Assembly: GCA_012520095.1 (NCBI GenBank)
Contig: JAAYOV010000021.1
Span: forward strand, 1 to 62,986
Source: Tissierellia bacterium
GTDB lineage: Bacteria > Bacillota > Clostridia > Peptostreptococcales > Acidaminobacteraceae
Length of the DNA: 62,986 nt
Direction of reading: 5' to 3'
Shown here: piece after piece, positions 25,463-51,446 of the stretch
How positions within the stretch are numbered: the stretch's first letter is position 1
Layout of the letters: each line of letters opens with the position of its first letter
Translations under genes and position numbers: made by a program
Notes under the pieces: generated by a model
Told to the model about the DNA's origin: nothing
The model's database searches: none
What the model saw: only the letters and a program-made list of their open reading frames with translations

Positions 25463-25623
25463 CGACCAGGATCTTAACGGAGGTATTCCTCCGAGGAAAC
25501 GGGTGTAATTCCCGTACAATGTCGTTGCTGTGTAGGAAGAGTTTTTCTCATGATGCCACTGGAGCCGATGCTCCGGGAAGGCGAGGAAAGCGTTGAGGCC
25601 AAGTCAGAATACGGATCCTGTCG
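25463..25623 (+). ncRNA. Cobalamin riboswitch aptamer
   Basis: The segment has the marks of the cobalamin aptamer in order. A closing stem forms between CGACCAGGATC (25463-25473) and GATCCTGTCG (25614-25623), with one bulged base. The core reads GAAACGGGTGTAATTCCCGT, then GCCACTGGAG, then GGGAAGGCG and GAGGCCAAGTCAGAATACGG, which matches the B12-box pattern. The CGGGTGTAATTCCCG element replaces the usual CGGTGAAAATCCG. A terminator follows at 25675-25712, so binding of a cobamide should reduce expression of the downstream CGGC protein and ABC transporter. The exact aptamer subclass (adenosyl- or methyl/aquo-cobalamin) is not resolved. Confidence 0.88.
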
Positions 25624-31884: not shown

Positions 31885-32721
31885 TTATTTGACAGGGAGA
31901 ACAGCTCCTCCATAATTGTCTGTAATCCACTGGGCTATCTCGTCGGATTGGAGCACCTCTACGAGCATTTTAATGGCTTCATCGCCTGCTCGATCTTCTT
32001 TGATGGCAACGATATTGGCATAGACTTCGGCGGCTTCTCCTTCAGCCGACTCGATGACAAGTGCGTCTTTTGCAACATTGAGCCCTGCGGCAATGGCATA
32101 GTTTCCGTTGATGACGGCAAAATCGACGTCTTGCAGCGCTCTTGGAATCTGCTCCGCAGCAAGCTCCACAATTTCCAGATTCTTCGGATTTTCTTCGATG
32201 TCATGGATCGTGGCGAGGATACCGGCGCCTTCTTTAAGTTTGATCAGGCCCGCCTGCTCAAGAAGAAGCAGTGCACGCGCTTCGTTCGTTGCATCATTGG
32301 GAACGGCAACACTGGATCCTTCTTTCAGCTCATCGAGTGATTTGAGTTTTCCTCCGTAGAGTCCATAGGGCTCATAGTGAATCTTTCCTGCTGAAATCAG
32401 TTTCGTACCGTTTTTCTCATTGAAGTCGTTCAGATAAGAAATATGCTGGAAGTAGTTGGCATCGAGCTCGCCGCTGTCGACGGCCGGATTGATGAGAGTG
32501 TATTCGTTGAATTCAACGATTTCAATTTCAATCCCTTTCTCCTTTAACGCCTCTTTTGCATATTCTAGAACTTCGCCGTGCGGGGTGACGGTTGCACCGA
32601 TTTTCAGTGTCTGAGGTCCGGCCGTCGGTGCGGGTTCTTTCTCCTGGGCGCACGCTGTCAGCGAGACAACGAGTAATAGAGCAAGCAGTACACCCAACGT
32701 TTTCGTTATTGTCTGTTTCAT
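31885..32721 (-). CDS. metQ: Methionine ABC transporter, substrate-binding lipoprotein
   Basis: 278 residues of the NlpA/MetQ family. The lipoprotein signal ends in VSLTAC. The mature domain begins TLKIGATVTPHGEVLEYAKE and holds NYFQHISYLNDFN, SVAVPNDATNEARALLLLEQ and the late VINGNYAIAAGL, all typical of MetQ. The ATG at 32721 has GGAGGAACAA upstream; the ATG twelve bases earlier contains that ribosome site and is less likely. It is the last gene of metN-metI-metQ. A fragment of a second copy lies at 25022-25108. Confidence 0.93.
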   Translation of the reverse strand: MKQTITKTLGVLLALLLVVSLTACAQEKEPAPTAGPQTLKIGATVTPHGEVLEYAKEALKEKGIEIEIVEFNEYTLINPAVDSGELDANYFQHISYLNDFNEKNGTKLISAGKIHYEPYGLYGGKLKSLDELKEGSSVAVPNDATNEARALLLLEQAGLIKLKEGAGILATIHDIEENPKNLEIVELAAEQIPRALQDVDFAVINGNYAIAAGLNVAKDALVIESAEGEAAEVYANIVAIKEDRAGDEAIKMLVEVLQSDEIAQWITDNYGGAVLPVK

Positions 32722-32747
32722 TTGTTCCTCCATTTTTATAATATTTA

Positions 32748-33422
32748 TTATGATTTACTGCGCAGCCTGGCATCCATTCGCCGGGAGAGACGCATGCCGA
32801 CCTCCTGAATGATCTGAACGATCACGATCAGAAGAAATACCGTCCAAAGCATGACATCGGTCTGATAGCGATGATAGCCGTAGTTGACGGCAATCGCTCC
32901 CAGACCCCCACCTCCTGTAAAGCCCGCAAGCGCGGAATAGCCTAAAATAGTCGTCGTCGCAATGACAGCACCTGTTGCAAGAGATGATCTCGCCTCTGTC
33001 AGGAGCACCTTCGTAATGATCTGATACGGACTTGCGCCCATCGATTCCGCCGCTTCGATGAGCCCGGCATCCACTTCCAAAAGAGATGATTCCACGACCC
33101 TGGCTATAAACGGAGCCGCCGCAATGACCAGAGGCGGAATGGTGGCTGTAGAGCCGATCGTCGTGCCGACGAGTTTTCTTGTCAGAGGAAGAACAGCCAC
33201 TAGCAGAATCAGAAAGGGCACAGAGCGCAAACTGTTAATGATGACGCCGAGTACCCGATTTAAACGAGGCATCGGCTGGATGCCGGAGGGACTCGTCACG
33301 GTAAGCAGCACGCCGAGCGGCAGGCCGAACAGATAGGCAAAAAACGTAGACACCAATGTCATATATAAAGTCTCAGACAAGCCTTCTCCTATCAGAGACA
33401 TCCATCGGGAAAACTCCATCAT
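32748..33422 (-). CDS. metI: Methionine ABC transporter, permease
   Basis: 224 residues, about five to six hydrophobic segments, with SLRSVPFLILLVAVLPLTR, the family element AAPFIARVVESSLLEVD and the ATPase-contact loop EAAESMGASPYQIITKVLL. The start overlaps metN by four bases; GAAGGTG is upstream. It forms the membrane channel of the D/L-methionine importer. Confidence 0.94.
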   Translation of the reverse strand: MMEFSRWMSLIGEGLSETLYMTLVSTFFAYLFGLPLGVLLTVTSPSGIQPMPRLNRVLGVIINSLRSVPFLILLVAVLPLTRKLVGTTIGSTATIPPLVIAAAPFIARVVESSLLEVDAGLIEAAESMGASPYQIITKVLLTEARSSLATGAVIATTTILGYSALAGFTGGGGLGAIAVNYGYHRYQTDVMLWTVFLLIVIVQIIQEVGMRLSRRMDARLRSKS

Positions 33423-34495
33423 TTTACACCTTCTTTACTGAGTCCGTTTTGGGCTGTGTCTTCCGTTACTTCCTCTACCGTCACTCCCCGACTGATCAGA
33501 TAGCTGATGATTTTTTCTTTATCCTGTTCATCTTCCGGAATCTGAATAATCATCTGCCCGTAGGCAATCCCGTCGATATTTCGGCTGTCTGCGGAGAGAA
33601 TACTCACCGGCGTCTGACAGGCAAGGGTCATATTGGCAATGATCGGCTCATTGGCTGCCGTGCCGTCAAAGACGACGCGCAAGTAGTTGTTGCCCTGAAG
33701 TCTCTCCAAAAGTTCTCCTTTTGGAAAAATCAACTCCCTTGCGATGCGAGAAGTCGGTCGCCGGAAAACCTTTTCCACCTCCCCCACCTCCGCAATACTC
33801 GTATCGATGACCGCTACTCGATGACATATCGCCTGCACCACCGACATCTCATGGGTGATAATGACGATCGTCACGCCGAGGGTTTCATTGATGCTCTTGA
33901 GAAGATCGAGAATCGACTTCGTGGTTGCCGGGTCAAGCGCCGAGGTTGCCTCATCGCACAAAAGCACATCCGGATCACTCGCCAGCGCTCTGGCAATGGC
34001 GACGCGCTGCTGCTGTCCTCCCGAGAGCTCGGAAGGATACGCCTTTTCCTTTTCCGGAAGTCCGACAAGTTCAAGCATTTCTCTGGCGCGTGCCGTCGCT
34101 TTGCTCTTTTCCATTCCGGAGATCTCAAGGGGAAAACGGATGTTTTCGAGCGACGTGCGTTGCTGCAAAAGGTTAAAACTTTGGAAAATCATGCCGATCT
34201 TCTGACGTTCCTTGAGAAGCTCCTTCTTCGAAAGAGTCTGAAGATCGACTCCTCGGAAAATGACCTTTCCATCACTTGGGCGCTCCAATAAATTCAGACA
34301 GCGAATCAATGTGCTCTTTCCCGCTCCTGACAATCCGATGATTCCAAAAATTTCTCCTGCTCGGATCGTCAGATTGACATCTTGGAGTGCCGTCACCTTC
34401 TCCTCACCTTTTCCGAAGACTTTTGTCAGTCCTTCGAGTTGAAAAAGCGGTTCTTCTCGTAGACCGTCGTGCACCGGAGTGACATATGAACTCAT
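33419..34495 (-). CDS. metN: Methionine ABC transporter, ATPase
   Basis: 358 residues. The ATPase part has Walker A GLSGAGKSTLIRCL, signature LSGGQQQRVAIARAL and Walker B LLCDEATSALD. The C-terminal NIL domain (about residues 265-340, LRVVFDGTAANEPIIANM) is the methionine-sensing regulatory domain that slows transport when internal methionine is high. AAGGAG precedes the ATG. The 317 bases upstream hold a methionine-rich leader peptide and terminator. Confidence 0.95.
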   Translation of the reverse strand: MSSYVTPVHDGLREEPLFQLEGLTKVFGKGEEKVTALQDVNLTIRAGEIFGIIGLSGAGKSTLIRCLNLLERPSDGKVIFRGVDLQTLSKKELLKERQKIGMIFQSFNLLQQRTSLENIRFPLEISGMEKSKATARAREMLELVGLPEKEKAYPSELSGGQQQRVAIARALASDPDVLLCDEATSALDPATTKSILDLLKSINETLGVTIVIITHEMSVVQAICHRVAVIDTSIAEVGEVEKVFRRPTSRIARELIFPKGELLERLQGNNYLRVVFDGTAANEPIIANMTLACQTPVSILSADSRNIDGIAYGQMIIQIPEDEQDKEKIISYLISRGVTVEEVTEDTAQNGLSKEGVK

Positions 34496-34554: not shown

Positions 34555-34583
34555 TAAAAAACTGCCCCGAATCAGAGGGCAGT
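34555..34583 (-). terminator. Attenuator terminator ahead of metNIQ
   Basis: On the minus strand ACTGCCC (34583..34577) pairs with GGGCAGT (34567..34561) and is followed by TTTTTT (34560..34555). It lies between the methionine leader peptide and metN, 60 bases before the metN start. It would end transcription in the leader unless prevented. Confidence 0.82.
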
Positions 34584-34623
34584 CATATGTGTCTTTACCG
34601 AAGTATTTCAGCGGCAAAAATAC

Positions 34624-34695
34624 CTATGATTCCCTCATCACAGGACGCATGAACATGTACATAGACATCGTATTCGAAATAAAGTTTGCTCTCAT
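34624..34695 (-). CDS. Methionine-rich leader peptide of metNIQ
   Basis: A 23-codon frame with AGAAGGA seven bases ahead of the ATG. It starts MRANFISNT and continues MSMYMFMRPVM, then three residues and TAG, so six of 23 residues are methionine, five of them in the second half. It lies between the promoter (34742-34771) and a terminator (34555-34583). The end of the frame, GAATCATAG (34632..34624), can pair with CTCTGATTC (34577..34569) in the terminator loop at eight of nine positions. A ribosome stalled at the methionine codons would leave GAATCATAG free to pair and disturb the terminator; one reaching the stop would cover it. This is the arrangement of classical attenuation, with charged Met-tRNA as the signal. 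Inferred from sequence. Confidence 0.65.
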   Translation of the reverse strand: MRANFISNTMSMYMFMRPVMRES

Positions 34696-34741
34696 TTCAT
34701 TCCTTCTTGTTCAGCCGTTGACGCTAAAATATATTAAATGA

Positions 34742-34771
34742 AAAGTACCACAGATATGTAACCATTGTCAA
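34742..34771 (-). promoter_or_regulatory. Promoter of the metNIQ leader
   Basis: On the minus strand a perfect TTGACA (34771..34766), 18 bases, then an extended -10 TGGTACTTT with its hexamer at 34747..34742. Start of transcription is expected near 34735, about 40 bases ahead of the leader peptide. Confidence 0.6.
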
Positions 34772-34812: not shown

Positions 34813-35517
34813 TTATTTATGCTGCATATAATATGAATACATGAGAATGGCCGCCGCCACACTGGCGTTGAGGGACTCAAACCGCTCCGTCGGAATCCGC
34901 ACAAAAAAGTCACATTGTTTTTGCACTTCTTTTGAAAGTCCCCTGTCTTCAGAGCCTATGATGAGAAGAGCTTTTTTATCATAGGCCGTGTCCTCTCCCG
35001 AGGATTCATGCGCATGCGCTCCGTAGATCCAATACCCCTCATCTTTGAGAGTTCGTATCGCCGCGGAAAGATTGGGGACTCTGGCCACCGGAAGATGCGC
35101 CGCCGCTCCGGCACTTGCTCGAAATACGACTGCATCCACCCCTGCGCTTCTTCTTTTGGGGATGATGATTCCCCCCGCTCCAAAGCTGTATGCACTGCGG
35201 ATGATCGCCCCTAAATTGTGGGGATCGGTGATCCCGTCACACATGATGAGAAATCGATTTTGCTCAATAAGATCTGTCAAATCAGCATAGGGAAACGCGC
35301 TGAGATAGGCAATGACCCCTTGATGTTTGGGGGAAACGGCATTCAACCTTTGCTTGTCGGCCCAATCAAAGGGGATTCCCCTCTCTTCAAGAAGGTCGAT
35401 CAATTCCGAAATTCTTTTCCGCTCCATATCGCGTTGAAATATAACGCGCTCTATGCCGAGCTGCGCCTCCAACGCCTCTTTCAGCGAATTTTTCCCTGTT
35501 AAAAACTCTCTGCTCAT
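34813..35517 (-). CDS. rlmB: 23S rRNA 2'-O-ribose methyltransferase RlmB-like (SpoU/TrmH family)
   Basis: 234 residues. The N-terminal substrate-binding part reads FLTGKNSLKEAL and the SPOUT knot follows with CDGITDPHNLGAIIRSAYSFGA, ALLIIGSEDRGLSKEV and ESLNASVAAAILMYSY, the three motifs of SpoU methyltransferases that bind S-adenosylmethionine in a trefoil knot. It sits after mrnC and cysS, a common order in Firmicutes, which supports RlmB (methylation of a 23S rRNA guanosine). Its start overlaps the small membrane gene by four bases. Confidence 0.9.
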   Translation of the reverse strand: MSREFLTGKNSLKEALEAQLGIERVIFQRDMERKRISELIDLLEERGIPFDWADKQRLNAVSPKHQGVIAYLSAFPYADLTDLIEQNRFLIMCDGITDPHNLGAIIRSAYSFGAGGIIIPKRRSAGVDAVVFRASAGAAAHLPVARVPNLSAAIRTLKDEGYWIYGAHAHESSGEDTAYDKKALLIIGSEDRGLSKEVQKQCDFFVRIPTERFESLNASVAAAILMYSYYMQHK

Positions 35518-39128: not shown

Positions 39129-40826
39129 CTACATCTTCTTAGGCGCTTCCATGTTGATGAGCTTCATTCCGTTTTCCAGCACCTGGGAAACTGCCTTCAC
39201 AAGAGCCAGTTTTGCTCGGGTGGCTTCCTCATCTTCTGTGATGACGCTGACCTGCTGATAGAACCTGTTGAACAGCTTGGCCACTCCCATCAGATAGCGC
39301 GACAGGATCGCCGGTTCATGTTTTTCTAATGCCGTTTCAAGTACTTCATCAAAGGAGCTGAGCTCTCTGATGAGAAGGGAACTTGCCTCTTCTGTCAAAT
39401 GCGAATAGTCGATATCTTTCAGATCCGCCTCTCCCCTCTCTAAGAGAGAGTGGGCGCGCACATTGGCGTACTGGAGATAAGGACCTGTCTCCCCTTCAAA
39501 ACTGAGCGCTTCATCCCAATCGAAGATATAGTCTTTAATGCGGCTCGTGGATAGCTCTTTATAGGCGATGGCGCCGAGCCCAACTTGCCTTGCGACTTCC
39601 TCTTTATCTTCGAGACCGGGGTTCTTCTGATCGATCAACTCCAATGTCTTTTGCACCGCCATTTGGATGACGTCTTCTAAAAAGATGACGCCGCCTTCAC
39701 GGCTCGACAATTTGCCGTCTTTGAGCATGATCAAGCCGTGATCGACGTGAACACAGTCATCCCACCACTGACGGCCCATCTTGTGGAGAATGGCTCTGAG
39801 CTGCTGGAAATGAAGTCTCTGCTCGCTTCCGACGACATAGAGGTTTTTATAAAAGTCATAGTGATTCTTTCGATAAATTGCGCAGGCGATATCTCGTGTA
39901 ATATAAAGGCTCGTTCCGGCACTCGTGGTGACGATGACATTGGTGAGATTGTAGTCACTCATGTCGATCAGTTCCATCCCGTCTTCATAAAACAGAAGAT
40001 CCTTTTCTACAAGCTCTTTGTGGACCGCCGGCATCTTGTCGGAGTAGAACGCCTCTCCGTCATAGGAGTCAAATGTAGCTCCGAGCATGTCGTACACTCG
40101 ATTGTACTCGGCCAGCGAAATCTCCTTAAACCAACTCCACAGATCATAGGCTTCCTGATCTTTTTCGACTTCTAATTTGTGGAACCACTGGCGGGCTTCT
40201 TCCATAAATTTTTCATCTCTCTTGGAGAACTTCTCAAATTTCACATAGAGATCTAAAAGAGCGCGAACGCCTCTTTCCTCAATGTCTTTGTCATCTCCCC
40301 AATGCTTGTATGCGGTGATGATCTTTCCGAAATTGATGCCGTAATCGCCCAAATGATTGACAGCGACCGCATTGTATCCGAGAAACTTCGCCAATTTGTA
40401 AAGAGATGATCCGATCATGATGCCTCGGATATGTCCGAAATGCAGTTCTTTTGAAATATTGGCGGAAGAGTATTCAACGATCATCGTCTTATTCTCTCCG
40501 ACATTCGTGGCTCCGTATGCCTCTCCTTCCTCAAGGATGGATCCGACGACGATTTCTGCTAAGCGCTCTTTCTTTACAAAGAAATTCAAATAGGCATTTT
40601 CAGCCACAATATCAAAGCGGTCGTCTGTAATCGTCTCAGAGAGCTCTTTGGCGATCATCGCCGGATTCTTCCTCATGCTCTTTGCCAATTTAAAGCACGG
40701 AAAAGCGACGTCGCCTTTTTCTGCATATTTCGGCACTTCCACCGACTCTCGTATCTCCTGCAAATCCATCATCTCGCCGACATGCTTCTCCAGCAGAAGA
40801 GATACTTCTTCCTTAAATTGCTTCAT
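39129..40826 (-). CDS. argS: Arginyl-tRNA synthetase
   Basis: 565 residues, class I synthetase. The N-terminal Add-1 domain runs to about residue 110; the HIGH-like motif is in EYSSANISKELHFGHIRGIM; SREGGVIFLEDVI follows the catalytic fold; the C-terminal helical anticodon-binding domain ends with LEKHEPAILSRYLMGVAKLF. Length is normal. Expression is controlled by an upstream T-box. It stands alone, separated from ispD by a terminator. Confidence 0.96.
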   Translation of the reverse strand: MKQFKEEVSLLLEKHVGEMMDLQEIRESVEVPKYAEKGDVAFPCFKLAKSMRKNPAMIAKELSETITDDRFDIVAENAYLNFFVKKERLAEIVVGSILEEGEAYGATNVGENKTMIVEYSSANISKELHFGHIRGIMIGSSLYKLAKFLGYNAVAVNHLGDYGINFGKIITAYKHWGDDKDIEERGVRALLDLYVKFEKFSKRDEKFMEEARQWFHKLEVEKDQEAYDLWSWFKEISLAEYNRVYDMLGATFDSYDGEAFYSDKMPAVHKELVEKDLLFYEDGMELIDMSDYNLTNVIVTTSAGTSLYITRDIACAIYRKNHYDFYKNLYVVGSEQRLHFQQLRAILHKMGRQWWDDCVHVDHGLIMLKDGKLSSREGGVIFLEDVIQMAVQKTLELIDQKNPGLEDKEEVARQVGLGAIAYKELSTSRIKDYIFDWDEALSFEGETGPYLQYANVRAHSLLERGEADLKDIDYSHLTEEASSLLIRELSSFDEVLETALEKHEPAILSRYLMGVAKLFNRFYQQVSVITEDEEATRAKLALVKAVSQVLENGMKLINMEAPKKM

Positions 40827-40846: not shown

Positions 40847-41021
40847 AGCGACTTAGAGACGATCGGTTGACCGCGGTGCCACTCTACTTAGTAAACTCAC
40901 TCATTAAACCGGAAAATATGGAAAGCGCGCCTCCCCGCTATCCCTCGCCGCTCTCATCAACCCGGCTTCTCTGTAGAGTCTTCAGGGGGAATCTTCTTCC
41001 TTCCGAAAATATGCTATTATA
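40847..41021 (-). ncRNA. T-box leader of argS
   Basis: On the minus strand the T-box sequence AGAGTGGCACCGCGG is at 40885..40871, followed by CTCTAAGTCGCTC and TTTTTT (terminator arm). Upstream the distal stem-I pattern CAGAGAAGCCGGGTTGATGA is seen, then GGGGAGGCGCGCTTTCC. A CGC triplet in that last segment sits where the specifier is expected and codes for arginine, as needed for argS. Uncharged tRNA-Arg should prevent termination. The limits given are approximate. Confidence 0.8.
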
Positions 41022-49359: not shown

Positions 49360-49543
49360 AAAAAACTCCGCCCTTTTGGGGCGAAGTGTTCCGCGTTACC
49401 ACCCAATTGATATTTCTACCACTCGTTCCTTTTAACGGCATCGCCGGCCTCGCAAGGCAACTCCGGAGTGAATCCAATCAGATATGCAGTCTTTCACCTT
49501 CACTGCTCGCTACCAAGTTCTGATCCACGGCTCCTTCAACGTT
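49360..49543 (-). ncRNA. T-box leader of pheST
   Basis: On the minus strand the T-box sequence GGGTGGTAACGCGG is at 49404..49391. The terminator ACTTCGCCC/GGGCGGAGT follows with a T run (49365-49360). In the 5' half, GAGCAGTGAAGGTGAAAGAC matches the distal stem-I loops. TTC in GGATTCACTCCGG lies at the expected specifier place and codes for phenylalanine. Limits approximate. Confidence 0.82.
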
Positions 49544-49549
49544 TTGTGT

Positions 49550-51349: not shown

Positions 51350-51446
51350 GGAGGTGGACAGGGGCTGGTGTCCCTTCCGGTCTTCAAAACCGGCAGGAGG
51401 TGTTCGGAGCATCTCCGGTGGGTTCGATTCCCATCCACCACCGCCA
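51350..51446 (+). tRNA. selC: tRNA-Sec (anticodon UCA)
   Basis: 97 bases ending in CCA. The anticodon loop is CTTCAAA between CCGGT and ACCGG, giving anticodon TCA. The acceptor is eight positions long (GGAGGTGG with CCACCACC), as in tRNA-Sec, with one A-A mismatch at position 3. A seven-bp variable arm is present (GGAGGTG with CATCTCC), and the T-loop is GGTTCGATTCC. It inserts selenocysteine at UGA together with SelB. It starts on the base after the plsY stop codon. Confidence 0.93.

Follow-up and report, generated by a model that had tools for sequence, protein, structure and literature searches.

Accounts of methionine control in Firmicutes usually centre on S-box riboswitches and Met T-boxes. 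In Streptomyces lividans TK24 a leader peptide, metL (MSTTSDRTPATEATTTPGARCMCRRMCAF), has been reported to precede metNIQ and was proposed to act as an attenuator, the termination step being unclear (PMC8079986), and a 2005 survey of Actinobacteria reported no methionine leader attenuators (PMC1262725). Among Firmicutes, leader attenuators are recorded for histidine (PMC2965389, PMC9413887), and a Leu-rich ilv attenuator peptide is reported in Staphylococcus aureus (PMC5794164). In some Firmicute lineages such leader-peptide attenuators replace T-boxes (PMC2965389, PMC9413887, PMC5794164). A search of open-access papers turned up no methionine leader attenuator on record for Clostridia, and the large class of Met/Cys leaders described below seems unrecorded.

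The window, a stretch of 62,986 nucleotides from the genome of a Tissierellia bacterium, carries on its minus strand, in this order, rlmB (34813-35517), a promoter, a Met-rich frame, a terminator, a ribosome binding site and metN. The elements of the leader and of the operon are as follows:

34742-34771, minus strand: promoter, TTGACA (34771-34766), 18 nt and TACTTT (34747-34742), with TGG as extended -10, read directly
34701-34707, minus strand: ribosome binding site of the leader frame, AGAAGGA, read from the sequence, with GAAGG kept in the congener (L023)
34624-34695, minus strand: leader peptide frame of 23 codons, MRANFISNTMSMYMFMRPVMRES and a stop codon, by reading of open frames
34623-34644, minus strand: anti-antiterminator (1:2) hairpin CCUGUGAU-GAGGGA-AUCAUAGG, -9.5 kcal/mol, by folding, the same in the congener
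34575-34636, minus strand: antiterminator, GAGGG(AA)UCAUA (34636-34625) paired with UAUGA(CUG)CCCUC (34587-34575), by folding and in the congener
34556-34583, minus strand: intrinsic terminator ACTGCCCT-CTGATTC-GGGGCAGT (in RNA, ACUGCCCU-CUGAUUC-GGGGCAGU) with a T run, by folding and terminator scan
33419-34495, minus strand: metN, ATPase of the methionine ABC importer, with NIL domain (Pfam ABC_tran and NIL)
32748-33422, minus strand: metI, permease (NCBIfam MetI NF008049, above cut-off)
31885-32733, minus strand: metQ, substrate-binding lipoprotein (Pfam Lipoprotein_9, 5.5e-89; MetQ/NlpA family by NCBIfam)

The first-pass annotation had listed a promoter, a 23-codon frame with six methionines, its ribosome binding site and a terminator ahead of metN, and all of them are present on the minus strand. 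The frame is short, predicted to be translated from its own ribosome binding site and rich in codons for the cognate amino acid (Met at codons 1, 10, 12, 14, 16 and 20, six of 23); of 5000 dinucleotide shuffles of the 317-nt rlmB-metN spacer, only 2 produced a short frame with five or more internal Met making up no less than 20% of it. An intrinsic terminator lies between this frame and the first gene, and the operon 3' of the leader is the cognate one, metNIQ, according to Pfam and NCBIfam, the best NCBIfam match of metN being MetN TIGR02314 with 361 bits, below the equivalog cut-off. A generic promoter scan did not list the leader promoter. On the plus strand of the window, a cobalamin riboswitch (25495-25612) and a selenocysteine tRNA gene (51350-51442) were also observed.

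The second species of the genus, 'Tissierellia bacterium isolate AS08sgBPME_4' (L003/L023; MetN 83-85% identical), carries at the matching position the leader MNNTSVLYRKHMFMLYMRPVMRES, likewise ended by a stop codon, with a promoter (TTGACA-N18-TATTTT with TGT), a ribosome binding site and a terminator. The two frames have one 3-nt in-frame indel between them, and MRPVMRES with its stop codon is the same in both species, wobble bases included. An identical run of 43 nt (34651-34609) is the longest of the region, the next being 21 nt, and the leader core is 87% identical against 48% for third codon positions of metN. The antiterminator pairing residues are all kept, with one change of U-G to U-A, and every difference in the core either falls in a loop or turns U-G into U-A, which keeps the closing pair of the terminator. 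An alignment with relatives, proposed in the first-pass annotation as a check, found the Met codons, the frame and the switch kept in the congener and paired changes in another genus, g370. Covariation is weak for the window leader itself, since only one ortholog of the exact leader is known; a third congener (G011) gave no metN match at the thresholds used. Searched for as a mobile or widespread RNA, the core motif turned up, with up to three mismatches, in two genomes among the 394 of the order and was not found in viral contigs, in phages or, meaningfully, in plasmids.

Folding of both sequences gave a single fold common to the window and the congener, the long antiterminator, which encloses the pairing UUUUUGCCG/CGGUAAAGA (34620-34612 / 34600-34592) for a total of about -22 kcal/mol and captures most of the terminator 5' arm. 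The CCUGUGAU/AUCAUAGG anti-antiterminator sits within the leader frame. Folding and conservation together indicate that the antiterminator excludes the terminator and would be accessible only with a ribosome stalled at the cognate codons. The first-pass annotation had placed the antiterminator in a pairing of GAATCATAG with CTCTGATTC in the terminator loop, for which the window has 8 matches out of 9 and the congener, whose loop is CTCCGAATC, has 6 of 9; not being kept there, it was dropped as the switch. In its place, the predicted conserved switch is GAGGG..UCAUA with UAUGA..CCCUC. The exact pairing of the earlier proposal was thus given up, but its ribosome-based attenuator logic stands on the frame, Met codons and switch of the congener and on analogous leaders elsewhere. 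In a simple duplex test the window pairing showed a modest gain over shuffled sequences (z -1.36).

A coupling model, in which a ribosome with a reach of 13 nt was put on each codon in turn and the remaining RNA submitted to simple folding, leaves the antiterminator available for every ribosome position as far as Met16 in the window or Met17 in L023. The antiterminator is lost about two codons past the last clustered Met, from about codon 18, and the modelled probability of the terminator is about 0.96 with the ribosome at the stop codon. With no ribosome on the frame, neither outcome clearly prevails in the window (P 0.47). A ribosome stalled at Met20, a codon that is itself part of the antiterminator, would favour termination. 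With the ribosome at Met14 or Met16 the terminator is still favoured at equilibrium (P about 0.9), so that antitermination would have to be kinetic; the antiterminator would presumably be complete before the terminator 3' arm is transcribed.

These elements are best read as a ribosome-dependent (classical) transcription attenuator that would sense charged tRNA-Met before metNIQ, a reading to which we give a probability of about 0.86. The sequence itself shows the parts and how they are conserved, pairings that exclude each other, and the geometry; ribosome stalling, termination and induction by methionine shortage are what we infer for its operation. RNA polymerase would make the leader RNA and a ribosome would translate the Met-rich frame. 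With ample methionine, the ribosome at the stop codon would cover GAGGGAAUCAUA, leaving UAUGACUGCCCU free, and the terminator would form, keeping metNIQ off. With methionine short, the ribosome would stall at the clustered Met codons 10-16 and leave GAGGGAAUCAUA free, whereupon the antiterminator would take the terminator 5' arm and transcription would proceed into metNIQ. If the frame were not translated, the antiterminator would face competition from the CCUGUGAU/AUCAUAGG hairpin. The attenuator reading is preferred because the frame, Met codons, ribosome binding site, promoter, hairpins and terminator are kept while metN third positions are 48% identical, and because no riboswitch or T-box is found here and the same layout recurs in many relatives.

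An Rfam search of the leader at gathering and relaxed thresholds returned no S-box (RF00162), T-box (RF00230) or other family, which bears out the absence of both elements noted in the first-pass annotation; weak matches to Phe_leader (17.6 bits, the cut-off being 55) and to snoRNAs were discarded as chance. The rest of the genome holds one S-box, before metK, and 17 T-boxes. Within the family, most metN examined have an S-box (12 loci, four with a tandem pair) and three have a T-box; neither stands ahead of metN in the genus of the window. Genus g8 of this family (L010, L011, L013, L017) has two tandem S-box riboswitches before metN. Two T-box-like leaders under the Rfam cut-off were seen on the minus strand of the window, at 40852-41010 (46.7 bits), directly upstream of an arginyl-tRNA synthetase-like gene (39129-40826; identity from reading its sequence), and at 49374-49548 (66.8 bits). 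Genome G396 (about 1.3 Mb) has no S-box match anywhere and carries a Met/Cys leader ahead of metN (L096).

Regions upstream of metN were collected from 80 genome-contig loci, 391 genomes of the class and 394 genomes of the order. A frame was taken as a leader if it followed a ribosome binding site, was no longer than 45 codons and had five or more Met+Cys making up no less than 20% of it; S-/T-box-like regions were excluded by pattern. Such leaders were found in 13 of 165 regions of the family, genome-contig and class sets (0 on the opposite strand; 0.05 expected from shuffles) and in 42 of the 73 S-/T-box-free regions of the order set (again 0 on the opposite strand, and about 0 in shuffles). 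A methionine attenuator had been expected to be unusual: the attenuator reading is well supported, but locally the rarity did not hold, since in the order most metN genes lacking an S-box have such a leader. All 42 leaders have at least eight Met+Cys, a number reached by no shuffle; they do not represent independent events, since 26 belong to one genus (MTRNMMMEMGMMGMCMCRADE and kin, 26 genomes). Across the class, Met/Cys leaders before metN extend to at least 20 genera, as tallied from group codes and record titles. Further examples are MYKDLSGAMMMMGMCMAMMSMCKSSRALLPNL, MRTNVSAYLNMNASDMCLSDMYMCMCMSMPCCSHIAFCSYL, MVVRCSMAMMTMCMCMCENMYNFCRAVR and the leader of Anaerocolumna aminovalerica, MRYKVSQSNNMNMMMCCGHMCGSMYMAYCCACYDT, from a genus (L100) in which metN was above threshold in one genome only. 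Genome G645 has two metN copies (L181, L234), and the Met/Cys-rich leaders that precede them differ from each other. Short Met frames near metN in L024 and L027 were not counted because no terminator intervenes, and AUG-rich antisense frames in some metN regions were dropped because the loci were unoriented.

Between congeners, 155 of 197 comparisons at Met/Cys positions show identity, against 184 of 341 at other positions. An intrinsic terminator lies between the stop codon and metN in all 18 leaders examined, and pairing of the frame end and next 30 nt with the terminator 5' arm beats shuffled sequences in most of the leaders (z -4.0 to +0.45; combined z about -6.8 with one leader per genus, summed from duplex tests). 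In genus g370 the antiterminator goes from CUUCUGCUG paired with CAGCAGAAG to CGCCUGCUG paired with CAGCAGGUG, two positions being changed on both sides. Genus g85 (L278-L315, 26 genomes) has a very Met-rich conserved leader, MMMEMGMMGMCMC, and a conserved post-stop RNA switch, in which GGUC.UAACGA.GCC after the stop pairs with GGC..UCGUUA.GACC of the terminator (24 leaders aligned). This pairing has a mean of -17.3 kcal/mol against -7.1 (sd 2.5) for shuffled sequences. L313 carries a compensated change, and partners can be exchanged across species at little cost (-16.95), since most of them are nearly identical. The g85 leader and switch could well merit an Rfam entry of their own. Rfam searches of 20 Met/Cys leader loci gave no cis-regulatory family, and, Rfam being blind to these leaders, many stand unannotated.

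A MetN tree of 158 rows, one of which (L007) is badly placed, requires the leader trait to change nine times, with seven or more of these changes forced by starred branches, which implies that the trait was gained or lost many times; as reconstructed, the tree shows repeated changes rather than a single origin. The window MetN sits on its own branch, with poorly separated neighbours, and is not placed near other leader bearers.

The identity of MRPVMRES and its stop codon across both species, down to the wobble bases, could also reflect nascent-peptide arrest, in which this C-terminus would itself stall the ribosome in response to a small molecule such as methionine, SAM or a drug, the Met codons being incidental. 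We consider this quite improbable, because the identity of the nucleotides is accounted for by the part that these same bases play in the antiterminator and in the 1:2 hairpin, and because the peptides of other genera are unrelated and have only Met/Cys richness in common. Strong nucleotide conservation, along with the stable closed fold, could likewise be claimed for an undescribed riboswitch binding a ligand through the 43-nt stretch and inner hairpin, with the frame as a by-product. Such an element is very improbable: the frame is kept with its start, ribosome binding site and an in-frame indel, Met codons are kept amid changes, the motif was found in two of the order's 394 genomes, and the analogous leaders share the peptide trait and not the RNA sequence.

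The terminator might, moreover, simply be the 3' end of the upstream rlmB operon next to a chance Met-rich frame, given that the same strand carries the end of rlmB at 34813 and that the next strong terminator downstream is that of the leader. A conserved promoter stands between rlmB and the frame, no promoter-like site was found from the terminator to metN, the frame is rare in shuffles and the antiterminator is conserved, all of which makes this the extremely improbable case. Judged by its anatomy, the window leader is a real and conserved ribosome-dependent methionine attenuator.

A third solution to methionine control thus recurs before metNIQ in at least 20 genera. Widespread, unrecorded Met/Cys leader attenuators are probably a main RNA control of metNIQ in Clostridia, repeatedly exchanged with S-boxes and T-boxes, which would imply transcription-translation coupling in these Firmicutes. 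Classical attenuation needs a ribosome close behind RNA polymerase, a condition questioned for Bacillus subtilis on account of runaway transcription, and with Met/Cys leaders such coupling can be put to the test in Clostridia. As something for a ribosome to sense, methionine is a curious choice, since translation initiation itself requires Met-tRNA; how a leader separates elongation starvation from failed initiation can be tested with this class. That the peptides mix Met with Cys suggests a signal, or a substrate range of the importer, that spans both sulfur amino acids.

Like the class of the window, metL of S. lividans is a Met-containing leader before metNIQ, also with Cys; unlike it, metL is actinobacterial, has a leaderless start and no typical terminator reported, and shows no evident homology (PMC8079986). 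With the his, trp and leu attenuators of Proteobacteria the window leader shares an amino-acid-rich frame, exclusive antiterminator and terminator and a cognate operon downstream, whereas it would sense methionine, control an importer and stand where relatives have an S-box or T-box. The his and ilv leaders of Firmicutes are also leader-peptide attenuators, for other amino acids and other operons. The S-box (SAM-I) and T-box elements before metN in relatives of the family hold the same operon position and do the same physiological job, but they bind SAM or tRNA directly, and neither is present in the window leader. The kind of mechanism is old; what is new is the amino acid that would be sensed, the operon and the spread in Clostridia.
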